Assembly (NCBI RefSeq): GCF_030814995.1
Contig: NZ_JAUSVX010000001.1
Location: forward strand, 124,001 to 188,000
Source of the DNA: Labrys wisconsinensis
GTDB taxonomy: Bacteria > Pseudomonadota > Alphaproteobacteria > Rhizobiales > Labraceae
DNA: 64,000 bases
Direction: 5' to 3'
Program-made: the position numbers and the translations under genes
Notes under the pieces: model-generated
Seen by the model: the letters and a program-made list of their open reading frames with translations, nothing else
What the model was told of the DNA's origin: nothing
Database searches by the model: none
Shown here: positions 1 through 37,800 of the stretch, in pieces
Position numbering within the stretch: position 1 is the stretch's first letter
How the letters are laid out: each line of letters opens with the position of its first letter

Positions 1-2310
<2,310 letters not shown>

Positions 2311-2323
2311 GCCCGGTCCTCCC

Positions 2324-4384
2324 TCATTCCCTGCCGTCGAGAAGGCGGCGCGCGGCCTCGGCCACGGCCTCTGCGGTGATGCCGAATTGCCGGAACAGCA
2401 CCTCGGCCGGCGCCGAGGCGCCGAAGCCGGCCATGCCGACGAAGGCGCCGTCCTCGCCGAGCCAGCGGGCCCAGCCGCCCTCGATCGCCGCCTCGACGCC
2501 GACACGCGGCGCCGAGCCCAGCACCGCCCGCCGGTCGTCCGGCGCCTGGCGCTGGAACAGCTCGAAGCAGGGCGCCGAGATGACGGCGGCACGGATGCCG
2601 TCCGCCGCCAGGGCCTCGGCCGCCCCAAGCGCGAGCGAGACCTCCGATCCCGTGGCGATCAGCGTGACGTCGCGACCGCCGTCGGGTTCGACCACGACAT
2701 AGGCGCCGCGGGCGACCCCGCCGCGCGTCGTCTCGCCCCGCGGCAGGGTCGGCAAGGCCTGGCGGGTGAGGCAGAGCACGGACGGCGTCTTTTCCGAGCC
2801 GAGCGCAAGGGCCCAGGCCTCAGCCATCTCGACCGCATCCGCCGGCCGGAACACCAGGAGGTTCGGGATCGCCCTGAGACCGGCCAGGTGCTCCACCGGC
2901 TGGTGGGTCGGGCCGTCCTCGCCGAGGCCGATGGAATCATGCGTCATCACATGGATGACGCGGATGCCCATCAGCGCGGCGAGCCGGATGGCCGGGCGCG
3001 AATAGTCGGAGAACACCAGGAACGTGCCGCCATAGGGCACGAAGCCGCCATGCAGGGCGATGCCGTTCATGGCGCAGGCCATGCCGTGCTCGCGGATGCC
3101 GTAATGGATGTAGGAGCCGGCAAAATTTCCGGGCCTGACCGGCGCCTGGGACTTGGCCTGCGTCAGGTTGGAATGGGTGAGGTCGGCCGAGCCGCCGGCG
3201 AGGTTGGCCATGGCCGGCGCCAGGGCCTCGATCACCTGCTGCGAGGCCTGGCGCGTCGCGATGACGGGCTTTTCGCCGGCGAAGCGTTCGCGCACGGCGT
3301 CGAGCGCCGCATGGGCCGTGGCGGGGATGTCGCCCCGCACGCCTTCCGCAAAGCGCCGCCGCGTCTCCACCGGCAAGCTGTCGAGGTGCCGGCGCCAGGC
3401 CCGGTGGGCGGCGGCGGAGCGCTGCCCCGCCTGCCGCCAGGCGGCGCGGATCGGCTCCGGCACCTCGAAGGGCGCATGCGGCCAGTTCAGCCTGGCGCGG
3501 GCGGCGGCGATCTCCTCGGGCCCGAGCGGGGCGCCGTGCACCTTCTCCGAGCCCTGCTTGTTCGGGGCGCCATAGCCGATGATGGTGCGGCAGGCGATGA
3601 AGGACGGCCGGTCGGTGCGCCGCTCGGCCGCGATCGCCACGGCCACCGCCTCGGGATCATGGCCGTCCACCCGCCGCACCGACCAGCCCGCCGCGGCAAA
3701 GCGCGCCGACTGGTCGTCGGAGCAGGACAGGCTGGTGGCGCCGTCGATCGAGATCGCATTGTCGTCGAACAGCACGATCAGCTTGGAAAGGCCGAGATGC
3801 CCCGCCAGCGAGATCGCCTCGTGGCTGAGCCCCTCCATCAGGCAGCCGTCGCCGACTAGGGCATAGGTGTGGTGGTCGACGACGTCGGCGCCGAAACGGG
3901 CGGCCAGCATGCGCTCGGCCAGCGCCATGCCGACGGCGGTGGCGATGCCCTGGCCGAGCGGCCCGGTCGTGGTCTCGACGCCCGGCGTGTGGCCATATTC
4001 GGGATGGCCGGCCGTCAGCGCTCCCCATTGCCGGAAGGAGCGCAGCTCGTCCGCCGTCATCCGGGGATAGCCGGTGAGGTGCAGCAGGGCGTAGAGCAGC
4101 ATCGAGCCGTGCCCGGCCGACAGCACGAAGCGGTCGCGGTCGGCCCAGGCCGGGTCGGCCGGATCGAACTTGAGGAAGCGGGTGAACAGCACCGTCGCCA
4201 CGTCGGCCATGCCCATCGGCATGCCGGGATGGCCGGAATTGGCCGCCTGCACCGCATCCATGGCCAGGGCCCGGACGGCATTGGCCATGTCGCGGAGCGA
4301 GACGTCGGCGGCGGCAGGCGCGGGCGCCCCGGCGATGCCGTGCAGGCCGGCCGCGGGCGGCGCGAAGGTGGTGGCTGACGTCAT
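2324..4384 (-). CDS. cbbT: transketolase
   Basis: Thiamine-diphosphate enzyme that moves two-carbon units between sugar phosphates in the regenerative phase of the Calvin cycle. The 686-residue length is normal for the family. The N-terminal TPP domain shows [23 protein letters not shown] and the GDG motif at residues 178-180; the pyrimidine domain shows [12 protein letters not shown] and a C-terminal domain follows. The ATG at 4384 is preceded by GGAGGG and overlaps the cbbP stop as ATGA, so the two are probably translationally coupled. The N-terminal 25 residues are Ala/Pro-rich and probably disordered. Confidence 0.95.
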
Positions 4385-5256
4385 GACGCCCTCCGCTTGC
4401 GCTCGATGAGCGTCAGGATGATCGGGGTGAGGATGAGCTGCATCGCCAGGTCGAGCTTGTTGCCGGCGATGACGATCGAGTTGGCCCGCGACATGAAGCT
4501 GCCGGGGATCATCGACAGGAGGTAGGGGAAGTCGATGCCGCGCGGATTGGCGAAGCGGATCACCACCATCGATTCGTCCGGCGTCGGGATCCAGCGCGCG
4601 ATGAACGGGTTGGAGGTGTCGACCGTCGGCACGCGCTGGAAGTTGATGTCGGTGCGGGTGAACTGCGGACAGATCGTGTTCACATAGTCCGGCATGCGCC
4701 TGAGGATCGTGTCGGTCACCGCCTCGGTGGAATAGCCGCGCAGCGAGCGGTCGCGATGGATCTTCTGGATCCATTCGAGGTTGATCACCGGCACGACGCC
4801 GATCCGGACGTCGGAATGGCGGGCGATGTCGATGCCCTCGCCCACCACCGCGCCGTGCAGGCCCTCGTAGAACAGGAGGTCCGTCTCCGGCTCGAACGGC
4901 TTCCAGGCGGTGAAGGTGCCGGCCGGGCAGCCCAGGATCTCGGCTTCCTCGGCGTCGTGGACATAGTGGCGGGTGCGCCCGCCGCCGCTCTCGGCATAGT
5001 CCGCGAAGGTCTGCTCGAGCTCGGCCAGGAGGTTGGCGTCGGGACCGAAATGGCTGAAATGGCGGTTGCCCCGCTCATATTCCTCGGCCATCCGCGCCTT
5101 CATCTCGGCCCGGTCATGGCGGTGGAAGGCGTCACCCTCGATGAAGGCGGCGGTGATCTTCTCGCGCCGGAAGATCTGCACGAACACGGTCTTGACCGAG
5201 GTCGTGCCCGCTCCGGAGGAGCCGGTGACGGAGATGATGGGATGCTTGGCGGACAT
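4381..5256 (-). CDS. cbbP: phosphoribulokinase
   Basis: Phosphorylates ribulose-5-phosphate to the RuBisCO substrate; with RuBisCO it defines the Calvin cycle. The 291-residue protein is the bacterial class I type. The P-loop GSSGAGTTS is at residues 12-20, followed by a conserved GDAFHRHDR segment and FYEGLHG. The ATG at 5256 sits after GGGGGAG. Its last four bases overlap cbbT (ATGA) and it starts 17 bp after the cbbF stop, so it is second in the operon. Confidence 0.95.
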
Positions 5257-5273: not shown

Positions 5274-6308
5274 TCAGACGCGGAACAGGCTGCGGCGGCC
5301 GAACAGGGGCGAGGTCTCGCCCGTGTCCTGCGGCGCGGCGTAGTAGCGGGCGATCCTCTCCACCTCCCGGCGCGAGCCGAAGACCAGCGGCACGCGCTGG
5401 TGCAGGGCGGCGGGGACGAGGTCGAGGATGCGGCTGCGCCCGTCGCTGGCGCCGCCGCCGGCCTGCTCGACGAGGAAGGCGATCGGGTTGGCCTCGTAGG
5501 TGAGGCGCAGGCGCCCCTGCCGGTAGTTCGGGCGAGCGTCGGCGGGGTAGAGATAGATGCCGCCGCGCGTCAGGATGCGCGTCGCCTCCGCCACCAGCGA
5601 GGCGTTCCAGCGGGTGTTGAAGTCGGTGCCGTGCGGGCCGGACGCACCCTTCTGGCAATCCGCGACATAGAGCCGGACCGCCTCGTCCCAATGCCGGTGG
5701 TTCGAGCCGTTGATGGCGTATTCGCGGGTCTCGCGCGGGATCTCGACGGCGGCGCTGGTCAGCACGAAGGCGCCGCAGTCCGGATCCAGGGTGAAGACCT
5801 GCGTGCCCGAGCCGAAGGTGAGCGCCAGCAGCGTGCGCGAGCCGTACATGAAGTAGCCGGCGGCGATCTAGGCGGTGCCGGGCTGCAGCAGGCCGCCGGC
5901 CGCGTCGCCGGCCCGCGGCAGCACCGCGAAGATGGTGCCGACCGGCACGCCGGTGTCGATATTGTCGGAACCGTCGAGCGGATCGATCGCCACGGCGATC
6001 GGCGCGGCGGCCGCGGCGGAGAGCGGCGCATCGAGCTCCTCCGAGCCGATCACCGCCACCGGCGCGGCGCGGAGCGCGTCGACCATCAGCCGGTTGGCGA
6101 CGAGGTCGAGCTCCTTCTGGGTGTCGCCCCCCTGCCCCTCCCCGCGCACCGCCGCCAGCGATCCGGCGAGCGGTCCGCGGGCGAGCAGGGCCGACAGCGC
6201 TCGCGCCGCACCGGCCAGCGCCAGGACCGCATCGGCGGCCGCGGCCTCGGCCGCGCCCAGCGGGCGATAGCGCATCAGATGAGTTTCGAGCCTGGTGCTG
6301 CCCGGCAT
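5274..6308 (-). pseudogene. cbbF: fructose-1,6-bisphosphatase with in-frame amber codon 147
   Basis: First gene of the cbb operon; the family hydrolyses fructose-1,6- (and sedoheptulose-1,7-) bisphosphate. From the ATG at 6308 (after GGGGGAGG) the frame encodes 146 residues including the metal site IDPLDGSDNIDTG (about 108-120), then TAG at 5868-5870. The same frame continues without a shift to TGA at 5274, supplying the rest of the enzyme (AAGYFMYGSRTLLALTFGSG, NGSNHRHW, RGGIYLYPAD, TYEANPIAFLVEQAGG). Total length of 344 codons is the normal family length. Homologues have QPGT-x-Q-x-AAGY here, so CAG to TAG (one C-to-T change) is the simplest explanation. TAG terminates other genes in this window, so recoding is unlikely. 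It may be a true nonsense mutation or a sequencing error. An internal ATG at 5849 has no ribosome site. Confidence 0.85.
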
Positions 6309-6461
6309 GCCGACCTCCCCCTCGCCCGCTTCGACCGGCGGGTCATCGCTCCGGGAAGGACGCAGCGCCTTCGCCCGATGCAGCCATCATGGCGGGCCGG
6401 TCTTGTAAGTAAATTTGAATTTTGTTACGGTCGTTTTCAGAAAAAATGAACGAGACCATCG
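6309..6461. promoter_or_regulatory. cbbR-cbbF divergent control region with LysR-type inverted repeat
   Basis: This 153-bp gap separates the divergent cbbR and cbbF genes and must hold both promoters. A local A+T-rich stretch at 6405-6450 contains the interrupted inverted repeat GTAA-N12-TTAC (6409-6412 and 6425-6428). LysR-family CbbR proteins bind T-rich interrupted palindromes in exactly this position, so it is a candidate operator. The A+T richness and dyad are seen directly; binding is inferred. Confidence 0.5.
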
Positions 6462-7424
6462 ATGCGCAACGTGACCATGAAGCAGCTGCGCACCTTTGCC
6501 GCCCTGGTGAAGGCAGGTTCGGTCACCGGCGCGGCCCAGAGCCTCAACATCACGCCGCCGGCGGTGACGCTGCAGATGCAGCTCCTGCAGGAGCAGGCCG
6601 GCCTGCCGCTGATCGAGCGCACCTCGGCCGGCATGACGCCGACCGATGCGGGGCGCGAGGTGCTGGCGGCCGCCGAGCGCGTGGCGGCGGTGCTGTCGGA
6701 ATGCGAGGCGGGCCTGGCCGAGCTCGCCGGCTCCCAGCGCGGCACGGCTTCGGTCGGCATCGTCAGCACCGCCAAATATTTCGCCCCGCGCGCCCTCGCC
6801 GCCTTCGCCCGCCAGCATCCGGAGATCACGCTGCACCTCACCGTCGGCAACCGGTCCGAGATCATCGCCGGGCTGCGCCAGCTCGATTTCGACATCGCCA
6901 TCATGGGCCGCCCGCCCGAGGAGCTGGAGGTCGAGGCCACGGTGATCGGCGAGAATCCGCATGTGATCATCGCCGCGCCCGACCATCCCCTCGCCGGCCG
7001 GCGCGCCATCGACCCTGCGCTGCTCGCCGGCGAGACCATGATGGTGCGCGAGCCCGGCAGCGGCACGCGCAGCCTGATGGAGCGCTTCTTCGCCGACGCC
7101 CGCGTCGCGCCCCGGCGCGGCATGCAGATGTCGAGCAACGAGACCATCAAGCAGGCGGTCATGGCCGGGCTCGGCATCGCCTTCATTTCCGGCCACACCA
7201 TCGAGGCGGAGATCGCCTCGGGGCGCCTCACCATGCTCGACATCGTCGGCCTGCCGGTCATCCGGCAATGGATGATCGTCCACTTGCGCCAGCGCCGCCT
7301 GATGCCGGCGGTGAAGACGCTCTGCCGCTTCCTGATCGACCACGGCGAGACCTTCCTGCCGGTGCCGCGGACCGGCTTTCAGGGCATCGACCGCCGCTTT
7401 GCCGAGATCGACCTGCCGCATTGA
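6462..7424 (+). CDS. cbbR: LysR-family regulator of the Calvin operon
   Basis: Transcription activator expected to sense Calvin-cycle metabolites and switch on the divergent cbb operon. The 320-residue protein has an N-terminal winged HTH (MKQLRTFAALVKAGSVTGAA, about residues 6-65) followed by the LysR substrate-binding fold (from about 95; VGIVSTAKYFAPRAL, the conserved CbbR entry to the effector domain). Its position next to cbbF and its effector-domain start support CbbR over a generic LysR. The ATG at 6462 lies just downstream of the A+T-rich shared promoter; an in-frame ATG six codons later is an alternative. Confidence 0.88.
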   Translation: MRNVTMKQLRTFAALVKAGSVTGAAQSLNITPPAVTLQMQLLQEQAGLPLIERTSAGMTPTDAGREVLAAAERVAAVLSECEAGLAELAGSQRGTASVGIVSTAKYFAPRALAAFARQHPEITLHLTVGNRSEIIAGLRQLDFDIAIMGRPPEELEVEATVIGENPHVIIAAPDHPLAGRRAIDPALLAGETMMVREPGSGTRSLMERFFADARVAPRRGMQMSSNETIKQAVMAGLGIAFISGHTIEAEIASGRLTMLDIVGLPVIRQWMIVHLRQRRLMPAVKTLCRFLIDHGETFLPVPRTGFQGIDRRFAEIDLPH

Positions 7425-9137: not shown

Positions 9138-9626
9138 ATGAAAAGGCTGGCTTTCATCGGCGCCTTGACGATCGCGGCGCTCGTCGCGGGCGAAGCGTCC
9201 GCGGCCAAGAACAGCAATCGCGTCGAGGGGGTCGCCACGCTCGACCAGGCCTGGGCGCTGATCGGCGATTTCTGCGGCATCAAGAACTGGCACCCCGCCG
9301 TCACCAAATGCGAGGAGACGGAGAAGGACGGCGCCAAGATCCGCACGCTCACCACCAAGGATGGCAGCACCTTCGTGGAGAAGCTGGTGAAATGGGACGA
9401 CAAGGACCATTCCTACACCTACGAGGCCCTGGAGAGCCCGCTACCGGTCACCAACTACGTCTCGACGCTGAAGCTCGAGGAGGATGACGAGCCGGGCAAG
9501 GTCGCCATCACCTGGTCCTCCACCTTCGAGCCCAAGGGCGTGCCCGAGCGCGCCGCCAAGAAGGCGGTCGCCGACATCTACCTCGCCGGCCTGCTGGCGC
9601 TGAAGGCGAAGATGAAGGGCAAGTAG
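9138..9626 (+). CDS. MxaD-like periplasmic SRPBCC protein
   Basis: 162-residue protein with a signal peptide (MKRLAFIGALTIAALVAGEASA) and an SRPBCC/START-like fold: WALIGDFCGIKNWHPAVTKCE, then the alternating strands LPVTNYVSTLKL and the C-terminal helix YLAGLLALKAKM. This pattern matches the MxaD family of methylotrophs, implicated in coupling methanol dehydrogenase to its cytochrome. GGAGGA lies seven bases before the ATG. It is divergent from phhB and convergent with the xox genes, consistent with a role in methanol oxidation; this role is inferred from family and position. Confidence 0.75.
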   Translation: MKRLAFIGALTIAALVAGEASAAKNSNRVEGVATLDQAWALIGDFCGIKNWHPAVTKCEETEKDGAKIRTLTTKDGSTFVEKLVKWDDKDHSYTYEALESPLPVTNYVSTLKLEEDDEPGKVAITWSSTFEPKGVPERAAKKAVADIYLAGLLALKAKMKGK

Positions 9627-11954: not shown

Positions 11955-13757
11955 TCATTCGGGGAGCGTGAAGACGGTGAGCTGACCGCCGAGAGCGGTG
12001 TAGTTGTTGAGGGCCGCATAGCCGCCCACCGCGCCGAGACCGGCGTTGGGGTCGGTGAGGCCCGCCGCCAGGCCGATGCCGGCCCAGCCGCCCACGCCCG
12101 AGAGCACCGCCACGTATTGCTTGCCCTTGTGGGTGTAGGTCATGACGTTGCCGATGATGCCGGACGGGGTCTTGAACTTGTAGAGCTCCTTGCCCGTCTT
12201 GGCGTCGACCGCCTTCAGATAGCCTTCCAGCGTGCCGTAGAACACGATGTCGCCGGCGGTGGCCAGGGCGCCCGACCAGACCGAGAACTGCTCCGGCAGC
12301 GACCAGACGATCTTGCCCTTGGTGGCGTCCCAGGCGATGAAGTTGCCCATGGTGTTGCCGCCGGGGGCCGGATACATCGACAGCGTGGCGCCGACATAGG
12401 GCTGGCCGGGGGTGTAGCTCACCTTGAACGGCTCGTAGTCCATGCACACGTGGTTGGTGGGCACGTAGAACAGGCCGGTCTTCGGCGAATAGGCCGAAGG
12501 CTGCTGGTCCTTGGAGCCGAGGGCCGCCGGGCAGATGCCCTTGGAGTTCACGTCCTCGCCGTTCTGCTCGGTCGAATATTGCGACACGACCAGCGGGCGA
12601 CCATAGGTCTTGCTGTTCTTGTCCATGTCGACCTTGGTGGCCCAGTTCACCGCCGGGTCGTACTTCTCGGCGACGAGCAGCTCGCCCGTCTCGCGGTCGA
12701 GGGTGTAGCCGAAGCCGTTGCGATCGAAGTGGACGAGCAGCTTGCGCTCCTTGCCGTCGATCACCTGGTTGACCAGCGGCACCTCGTTGACGCCGTCATA
12801 GTCCCATTCGTCGTGGGGCGTCATCTGATAGACCCACTTGGCCACGCCCGTGTCGGGATCGCGGGCGAAGATGGTCATAGACCACTTGTTGTCGCCCGGG
12901 CGCTGCTTCGGGTTCCAGGTCGAGGGGTTGCCGGAGCCGTAGTAGAACAGGTTCAGGTCCGGATCGTAGGAATACCAGCCCCAGGTGCAGCCGCCGCCGG
13001 TCTTCCACTGGTCGCCCTGCCAGGTCTTGATCGATGAATCCTTGCCGATGGGCTTGCCGAGATCGGTGGTCTTTTCCGGATCGACCAGGAGCTGGTCGTC
13101 GGTGCCCACCGAATAGGCGCGCCAGGCGAGCTTGCCGGTCTTCATGTCGTAGGCGGTGACGTGGCACTGCACGCCGAACTCGCCGCCGGAGATGCCGACG
13201 ATGACCTTGTCCTTCACCGGCAGCACGGTCGCGGTGTTGGTCTCGCCCTTCTTCGGGTCGCCGTTGACGACGGACCACACCACCTTGCCGTCCTTGGCGT
13301 CGAGGGCGACGACCGTGGTGTCGGCCTGGTGCAGGAACACCTTGCCGTCGGCATAGGCGAGGCCGCGGTTCACGGTGTCGCAGCACATCACCGGAATGAC
13401 GTTGGGATCCTGCTTGGGCTCGTATTTCCAGATGATCCTGCCCTCATTGTCGAGATCGAGGGCGTAGACGATGTTCGGGAAGGGCGTGTGGACATACATC
13501 ACGTTCCCGACCACGAGCGGCGAGCCCTCGTGGCCGCGCAGCACGCCGGTCGAGAACGACCAGGCCACCTGCATCTTGCCGACATTGCCGGCGTTGATCT
13601 GGTCGAGCTTGGAGTAGCGGGTGTTGGCGTAGTCGCCGGTCTGGATCACCCACTGGTTGGGGTCCTCGGTGAGCTTCTTCACCTCGTCGTTCGCACTGGC
13701 CGTCCCACTATAGAACAGGGACCCGAGGATCCCCGCCAAGACCAAGAGTCGTTTCAT
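11955..13757 (-). CDS. xoxF: lanthanide-dependent methanol dehydrogenase XoxF
   Basis: 600-residue PQQ-dependent alcohol dehydrogenase that oxidises methanol in the periplasm. It has a signal peptide (residues 1-22), an eight-bladed propeller, the adjacent-cysteine disulfide MCCDT (C125-C126), metal ligands E193 (GGEFGV) and N277 (GSGNPSTWN), and the key [10 protein letters not shown]: catalytic D319 followed by D321, the extra aspartate that marks rare-earth-using XoxF and is alanine in calcium MxaF. The ATG at 13757 follows GGAGGAAACG. xoxG and xoxJ follow in the same direction. No mxaF or mxaI small-subunit gene is present in the window. Confidence 0.97.
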
Positions 13758-21774: not shown

Positions 21775-22670
21775 TGGCCGCCGTCGCCTTCCCCGCCGAG
21801 GCCCGCGGACCCAGGCCCCGCCGCCTCACCGCCGGCCGCATCGGGCTCTACGCCTTCCTCCTCGCCGCGGCCGCCTTCTTCCTGCTGCCGGTCGTGGTGA
21901 TGGTGCTGACCTCGCTCAAGACCATGGACGAGATCCGCCAGGGCCAGATCTTCGCCCTGCCGCAGGCCTTCGACACCAGCGCCTGGTCGACCGCCTGGTC
22001 GAGCGCCTGCACGGGCCTTGCCTGCGAGGGCATCCGCGTCGGCTTCTGGAACTCCGTGCGCATCCTCGCGCCGAGCGTGGTGCTGTCGATCGCCATCGGC
22101 GCGATCAACGGCTACGCCCTGTCGCTGTGGAACGTGCGCTACGCCAACCTGCTCTTCGCCATCCTGCTGATCGGCGCCTTCATCCCCTACCAGGTGTTCA
22201 TCTATCCCCTGGTGCGGCTGTCGTCGGCGGCCCAGATCTTCGCCACCCTGCCCTGCATCGTCCTCGTCCACACCATCTTCGGCATGCCCTACATGACGCT
22301 GATCTTCCGCAACTATTATGCCGGCCTGCCGCCGGAGCTGTTCAAGGCGGCGCGGGTCGACGGCGGCGGCTTCTGGCGCATCTTCCTCCATGTGATGCTG
22401 CCGATGTCGACGCCGATCCTGATCGTCGCCGTCATCCTGCAGGTCACCGGCATCTGGAACGACTTCATCCTCGGCCTGACCTTCGCCGGCAGCGCCAACA
22501 ACCCGATGACGGTGCAGCTCAACAACGTGGTCAATTCCACCACCGGCGAGCGCGCCTACAATGTCGACATGGCCGCCACCCTGCTCACCGCCGCCGTGCC
22601 GCTCTTCGTCTACTTCGTTTCCGGCCGCTGGTTCGTGCGCGGCATCGCCGCCGGCGCGGTGAAGGGGTAG
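21774..22670 (+). CDS. CUT1 sugar ABC transporter permease (MalG-like)
   Basis: 298-residue inner-membrane protein with six spans, EAA loop AARVDGGGFWRIFLHVMLP and the usual C-terminal GIAAGAVKG. The ligand-side segment TSLKTMDEIRQGQIFALP is typical of glucose/mannose-type permeases. The start overlaps the MalF-like stop, and the stop is three bases before the ATPase start, so all transporter parts are made from one message. Confidence 0.9.
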   Translation: MAAVAFPAEARGPRPRRLTAGRIGLYAFLLAAAAFFLLPVVVMVLTSLKTMDEIRQGQIFALPQAFDTSAWSTAWSSACTGLACEGIRVGFWNSVRILAPSVVLSIAIGAINGYALSLWNVRYANLLFAILLIGAFIPYQVFIYPLVRLSSAAQIFATLPCIVLVHTIFGMPYMTLIFRNYYAGLPPELFKAARVDGGGFWRIFLHVMLPMSTPILIVAVILQVTGIWNDFILGLTFAGSANNPMTVQLNNVVNSTTGERAYNVDMAATLLTAAVPLFVYFVSGRWFVRGIAAGAVKG

Positions 22671-36534: not shown

Positions 36535-37800
36535 ATGATCAGAAAACTGCTCCTCGCCGCCGCCGCGACCATGATGGTCGCCGGCACGGCCCAGGCCGAC
36601 ACCACGCTCAAATTGGTCGAGGTCATCACCAGCCCCGAGCGCACCGAGACGCTCAAGAGCATCGTCAAGACCTTCGAGGACGCCAATCCCGGCGTGAAGG
36701 TCGAGATCGTCTCGCTGCCCTGGGGCCAGGCCTTCGAGAAATTCGCCACCATGGTCTCGGCCGGCGACACGCCCGACGTGGTCGAGATGCCGGACCGCTG
36801 GCTCTCCCTCTACGCCAACAACGGCATGCTGGAGAGCCTGGAGCCCTATCTGGCCAAGTGGGAGCACACCAAGGACCTGAACGACCGCGCCCTGCAGATG
36901 GGCCGCTACGTCAAGAACACCGCCTATGCGCTGCCCTACGGCTTCTATCTCCGGGCGCTGTTCTACAACAAGAAGCTGTTCGCCGACGCCAAGGTCGATG
37001 CTCCACCCAAGACCATGGACGAGTTCATGGACGCGGCCAAGAAGGTCTCGGCCCTGCCCGGCAAGTCCGGCTACTGCCTGCGCGGCGGGCCCGGCGGCCT
37101 CAACGGCTGGATGATGATGGGCGCCACCATGAACGGCGACGACACCTACTTCAAGCCGGACGGCACCTCCACCATGGCCGACCCCGGCTGGGTCAAGGGC
37201 GTCACCTTCCTGGTCGACCTCTACAAGAACGGCTACGCGCCGAAGGACAGCGTCAACTGGGGCTTCAACGAAATCGTCTCCGGCTTCTATTCCGGCACCT
37301 GCGCGATGCTCGACCAGGATCCGGACGCGCTCATCGCCATCGCCGAGCGCATGAACAAGGACGATTACGACGTCGTGCCCATGCCCAAGGGTCCGGCCGG
37401 CAAGGCCTTCCCCACCATCGGCTACGGCAGCTGGTCGATGTTCTCCAACTCCAAGGAGAAGGACCTCGCCTGGAAGCTGATCGCCACCCTCGACGGCCCG
37501 GAGGGCAACATCGCCTGGAACAAGAAGATCGGCGCGCTGCCGATCTACACGGCGGCGGAGAAGGACCCCTTCTACGCCGATCCCAAGTTCAAGGGCTGGT
37601 TCGCCGAGCTCGCCGACAAGAACGTCATCCCGACGGTGATGCCGACCTATCTGTCCGAGTTCGCCTTCTTCGCCGATTCGATCGCGGTGAAGACGACGCA
37701 GCAGGCCCTGCTCGGCCAGCTCTCGCCGGAGGATCTCGCCAAGCAATGGGCGGATTATCTGACCAAGGCACAGCAGAAGTACCTGGCGGAGAAGAAGTAG
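36535..37800 (+). CDS. CUT1 ABC transporter substrate-binding protein
   Basis: 421-residue family 1 solute-binding protein with signal peptide (residues 1-22, ending GTAQA): LVEVITSPERTETLKSIVKT, MVSAGDTPDVVEMPDRW, TMDEFMDAAKKVSALPG, GSWSMFSNSKEKDLAWKL. ATG at 36535 follows AGGGGAA. The following 245-bp gap holds a large folded repeat before the permease genes. Substrate unknown; the neighbouring PLP lyase and creatininase-like protein hint at an amine-bearing compound. Confidence 0.88.
   Translation: MIRKLLLAAAATMMVAGTAQADTTLKLVEVITSPERTETLKSIVKTFEDANPGVKVEIVSLPWGQAFEKFATMVSAGDTPDVVEMPDRWLSLYANNGMLESLEPYLAKWEHTKDLNDRALQMGRYVKNTAYALPYGFYLRALFYNKKLFADAKVDAPPKTMDEFMDAAKKVSALPGKSGYCLRGGPGGLNGWMMMGATMNGDDTYFKPDGTSTMADPGWVKGVTFLVDLYKNGYAPKDSVNWGFNEIVSGFYSGTCAMLDQDPDALIAIAERMNKDDYDVVPMPKGPAGKAFPTIGYGSWSMFSNSKEKDLAWKLIATLDGPEGNIAWNKKIGALPIYTAAEKDPFYADPKFKGWFAELADKNVIPTVMPTYLSEFAFFADSIAVKTTQQALLGQLSPEDLAKQWADYLTKAQQKYLAEKK

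Follow-up and report, generated by a model that had tools for sequence, protein, structure and literature searches.

The locus raises the question of how an amber (TAG) codon came to stand inside cbbF, the first gene of a Calvin operon, and what it means for the enzyme. Throughout, the window is the whole 64-kb stretch of DNA that was analysed. The original prediction had reported a single TAG that interrupts the frame at codon 147 without shifting it, and this was confirmed at 5868-5870. Most probably, a recent nonsense mutation has inactivated cbbF, the strain lacks a working class I fructose-1,6-bisphosphatase (FBPase), and the loss could be tolerated via GlpX, perhaps with a PPi-dependent phosphofructokinase (PPi-PFK). 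The gene and its parts are as follows.

5274..6308, minus strand: cbbF, class I fructose-1,6-/sedoheptulose-1,7-bisphosphatase, interrupted (344 codons plus TGA; named from family matches)
5868..5870, minus strand: in-frame TAG, codon 147 of cbbF (plus-strand letters CTA)
5868..6308, minus strand: N-terminal open frame of cbbF up to the stop, 146 aa
5274..5849, minus strand: C-terminal open frame of cbbF from the first ATG past the stop, 191 aa, FBPase_C domain inside (the domain scan of this piece began at the codon after TAG)

Apart from the TAG, the frame (6308..5277, minus strand) is open over 344 codons and ends with TGA at 5276-5274, and the reading frame is unchanged across the stop. 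The NCBIfam model NF006780 is matched by one piece and then the other in succession (6-144, then 147-343, of 343), although either piece by itself falls below the whole-protein cut-off. With Pfam, PF00316 was matched at 31-149 before the stop and at 153-190 after it, followed by PF18913 at 1-126. Both domains of a class I FBPase are therefore present in the correct order, but not in a single uninterrupted frame. When X was placed at the stop, the full frame matched class I FBPases of known structure, 7k74 being the top match (E 3.1e-79). The stop falls inside the N-terminal FBPase domain and not at a domain boundary. The 146-residue fragment is thus without the end of this domain and without the entire C-terminal FBPase domain, and judging from its sequence it should be inactive. 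A PF00316 search of the genome returned cbbF as its sole match, so that no second class I FBPase match was found in the assembly.

The age of the break was addressed by comparison with 33 homologues, comprising the 29 top matches in the search of the order (the window's own gene not counted), three congeners, and Aureimonas glaciei. These are best matches and not a random sample. Homologues had been predicted to carry glutamine at or next to the stop, and all 33 have it at the codon-147 column (CAG in 30, CAA in 3); none of them has a stop there, as expected where the TAG is the premature stop of a nonsense pseudogene. Moreover, cbbF retains all 49 invariant columns, 13/13 before the stop and 36/36 after it, with the N-terminal ones under-counted because several homologues start late. 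By the same measure in a leave-one-out control, 24 of the 33 homologues deviate nowhere and nine deviate at one to four columns. GC content at third positions is 0.911 before the stop and 0.955 after, and eight other cbb genes nearby range over 0.914-0.946. Neutral substitution was also simulated (3000 runs): a further stop or an altered conserved residue had appeared in half of the runs by 6 substitutions and in 95% by 24 substitutions in 1032 bases (~2.3%). Since such damage comes early in the simulation and none is seen in cbbF, any neutral period must have been short. Long-standing decay or relaxed selection is therefore unlikely, given the intact columns, the normal third-position GC and the simulation. 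From the invariant glutamine and the intact columns it follows that the break is either very young or a base-call error.

Broader searches placed the gene among its relatives. Across the order, a protein match was found in 200 of 397 genomes, and among the matches listed an in-frame stop occurs in 3 of 150. These are the cbbF described here and two others with TGA (genomes G188 and G336), in which the alignment is stop-free through query residues 323 and 325 and the TGA lies beyond. Identity to 30 loci of other families is 50-58% for CbbF of the window and 44-50% for that of the congener G004, a comparison which favours the window, as 29 of the 30 loci were chosen as its own best matches; for A. 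glaciei CbbF, identity to loci of other families is 46-53%. A plasmid search gave 227 records, the best at 60.3% identity. A protein search of genome contigs confirmed one relative, with records from the same or a very near genome possibly left out. In the portions of the literature consulted on cbbF pseudogenes, stop codons and nonsense mutations, no naturally broken cbbF was found, and the nonsense mutations described in the excerpt of one report were laboratory-made and in cbbL (PMC12875217).

In the window and the contig beyond it, the operon runs cbbF, P, T, A, L, S, X, E, with cbbR divergent, and all of its cbb genes are open frames, cbbF excepted. Its members within the window are as follows.

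4381..5256, minus strand: cbbP, phosphoribulokinase, 291 aa, open frame (Pfam name)
2324..4384, minus strand: cbbT, transketolase, 686 aa, open frame (Pfam name)
1231..2310, minus strand: cbbA, fructose-bisphosphate aldolase, 359 aa, open frame (putative name)
1..1217, minus strand: cbbL, RuBisCO large subunit, 495 aa, extending beyond the window start (PF00016)
6462..7424, plus strand: cbbR, LysR-type regulator, 320 aa, divergent from cbbF, open frame with LysR domains

The name cbbA is assumed from the translation, and the frames beyond the window after cbbL are taken, likewise from their translations, to be cbbS, cbbX, and cbbE. The best NCBIfam match of cbbR is CbbR, below the cut-off (348.1 vs 450 bits). 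As to the possible polarity on cbbP onward raised in the original prediction, by eye a purine-rich stretch resembling a ribosome-binding sequence precedes the gene's own ATG. On one side of the operon lies a PQQ-type alcohol dehydrogenase (11955-13757; Pfam PQQ), which we take to be XoxF-like, and on the other side are frames presumed to be pqq-like (L007 103-2907). Together these flanking genes suggest methanol-linked carbon fixation.

Within the genus, four of five genomes were found to have a high-scoring RuBisCO match together with cbbF, while G001 has neither. The three other cbbF genes are without an in-frame stop, and therefore the break is peculiar to this genome among the five. Identity to congeners (window 5274-7424 against L009-L011) is 46-50% for cbbR and cbbF, and 73-88% from cbbP to cbbE where these were found. 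A replacement of cbbR and cbbF by transfer was considered on the basis of the low values and set aside, as low identities for both genes also occur between the other families compared. The operon's left end would thus seem to be its faster-evolving part. Two further observations concern RuBisCO and the operon in the genus. In the congener G002 (L011 7517-10991), no cbbA match lies between cbbT and cbbL, where 31 bases separate the alignments, and a cbbE match is absent too, unlike in G003 and G004; by its sequence, cbbA seems to have been lost from this operon. A second, divergent RuBisCO-large-like gene (G000:C3:301218-302048; L081), perhaps a RuBisCO-like protein in our assumption, has a match of similar score in all five genus genomes.

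The main rival to a recent nonsense mutation is a base-call or assembly error, a reading also named in the original prediction, in which case cbbF would be free of stops in the organism. It is clearly the less probable of the two, with a modest likelihood. Such an error would produce an identical picture, and it agrees with the intact columns on either side of the stop, with the stop-free cbbF genes of the congeners, and with the remaining open genes of the operon, a state which fits a still-working cbbF equally well. The assembly consists of 55 contigs with 4.91% estimated contamination. Against this explanation, an assembled contig of 1.39 Mb seldom contains isolated substitution errors. Moreover, the window was scanned for single stops with at least 100 coding-like codons on either side in the same frame, a scan that is blind to frameshifts and short pieces. 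Eight sites were obtained, cbbF included, of which 47703 and 31087 were dropped because GC at first positions was lower than at second positions. Pfam searches with the pieces of the other five sites found unlike domains on either side of the stop at four of them, while the fifth separates two permease domains, each of whose matches starts near the profile start. By these domain matches, each of the five seems to be the normal end of a gene. Only at cbbF, among the six sites kept, does one protein family continue across the stop, and the in-frame stop scan with Pfam on the pieces revealed no second break of its sort in the window.

A further explanation is that the stop is real and the enzyme is still partly made, either by read-through of the TAG or by a restart at 5849-5847, giving one long chain or two complementing ones. 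This is improbable. In its favour, an ATG located 18 bases past the TAG (the seventh codon after the stop) opens the 191-aa frame, and invariant columns are kept in both halves. For a restart, however, no strong ribosome-binding sequence was seen by eye before this ATG, and the break lies inside the N-terminal domain, which also argues against two complementing chains. For read-through, the base 3' of the TAG is A, whereas known leaky stop contexts have C, and no notable RNA fold was found around the stop (z +1.68). An amber-suppressing tRNA had been suggested as a check; among 47 tRNA-like hits in the genome (45 called by ARAGORN, the other two inspected by eye and with Infernal), none has a CTA anticodon. 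The same 47 hits are without tRNA-Ile(GAT) and tRNA-Ala(TGC), as if the interior of an rRNA operon were absent from the assembly. The assembly thus seems to lack part of the tRNA set, which leaves a small probability for an unassembled suppressor. Elsewhere in the genome, an odd pair of adjacent tRNA-like genes was observed (L096; G000:C2:668762-668904), the first with a GTA anticodon (53.6 bits) and the second degenerate (40.9 bits) and uncalled by ARAGORN. Pyrrolysine decoding was rejected, since PylS scores 23.7 bits against a cut-off of 178.15, with similar scores in control genomes, the release factor RF1 is present above its cut-off, and TAG is an ordinary stop here.

Even less probable is that a real stop is tolerated because CbbF is still made at a low level, through the ATG restart (as two chains) or through read-through, so that the stop would control the dose from the first gene of the Calvin operon. 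Least probable, to the point of being negligible, is that the organism decodes TAG generally as an amino acid, with the conserved downstream frame of cbbF as the sole point in favour: as the original prediction held, general recoding is unlikely and TAG ends other genes of the window (stops at 9624-9626 and 37798-37800), cbbS of the same operon terminates in TAG with all of its 139 residues aligned to counterparts, 5 of the window's 33 coding-like frames terminate in it, the TAG at 22668 separates a permease domain from an ABC ATPase domain, and RF1 is present.

If cbbF was inactivated by a recent nonsense mutation, a point mutation would have turned codon 147 into TAG, and the stop would be present in the organism and not in the assembly alone. 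The product would be the 146-residue fragment, which is missing the enzyme's C-terminal half and is presumably inactive. Dephosphorylation of fructose- and sedoheptulose-bisphosphate (FBP and SBP), in the Calvin cycle and in gluconeogenesis, might then fall to GlpX, and PPi-PFK may provide another route. The loss would be tolerated, perhaps at the cost of slower autotrophic growth. A second FBPase of the GlpX type had been anticipated, and such a gene was indeed found. The genome has a single match to GlpX (class II FBPase), which is 332 aa long, stop-free, and scores 342.8 bits against an NCBIfam cut-off of 259.3. It is related to solved class II FBPases, including the class 2 FBPase/SBPase entries 3roj and 5a5l, and a GlpX match is present in all five genus genomes. 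We take the frame directly before glpX to encode a homoserine dehydrogenase-like protein, and a frame farther on, past one on the opposite strand, to be RecJ-like. The best NCBIfam match of the phosphofructokinase in the genome, an open frame, is diphosphate--fructose-6-phosphate 1-phosphotransferase (333 bits, cut-off 273). The absence of Calvin flux, offered in the original prediction as the alternative to another such enzyme, does not follow, since GlpX and PPi-PFK are both present.

By analogy with distant relatives, GlpX and PPi-PFK of this strain may have SBPase activity, and GlpX, perhaps together with PPi-PFK, could cover for the lost CbbF. Brucella suis is another member of the Hyphomicrobiales. 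According to the excerpt of one paper, GlpX of B. suis 513 was reported inactive, and the dual activity was assigned to Fbp together with Bbp, a third enzyme (PMC11005471). A GlpX-type gene is therefore no proof of cover. The same excerpt cites a dual class II enzyme for Bacillus methanolicus (PMC11005471). As for PPi-PFK, the enzyme of Methylococcus capsulatus is cited, in the text available from another paper, for reactions like those of FBPase and SBPase. The same text proposes PPi-PFK for both steps in two ammonia oxidizers without FBPase and SBPase (PMC5960693).

The most likely account of cbbF is thus a commonplace gene lesion of recent date, or else a base-call error, and neither amounts to a new type of system. 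Should the stop be real, the strain would serve as a natural experiment on whether a Calvin cycle of the alphaproteobacterial type can run its FBP and SBP steps on GlpX or PPi-PFK; beyond this, it adds one more young pseudogene. It is also a caution that operon structure alone is insufficient to infer a working cbbF.

Compared with the proteobacterial class I F/SBPase CbbF (PF00316 and PF18913), the gene has the same consecutive family parts, the same place as first gene of a cbb operon with cbbR divergent, and all of the invariant columns, and differs in the TAG at codon 147, a position at which all 33 aligned homologues are stop-free. It resembles a young nonsense pseudogene with a possible backup in having a single stop with no further visible damage, and in that unrelated enzymes with the potential for the same reaction are encoded in the genome; it differs in heading an otherwise open Calvin operon. 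Like N. multiformis and N. ureae, as these are described in the excerpted text, the strain has a possible backup enzyme of the same kind, PPi-PFK, but FBPase is missing in those species, whereas the strain still carries its gene in newly broken form, and its use of the backup is putative (PMC5960693). In Synechocystis, a class II F/SBPase is found, and GlpX of this genome is of the same kind, a likeness that refers solely to the class II assignment of the cyanobacterial enzyme in the excerpt of that report (PMC10507043).
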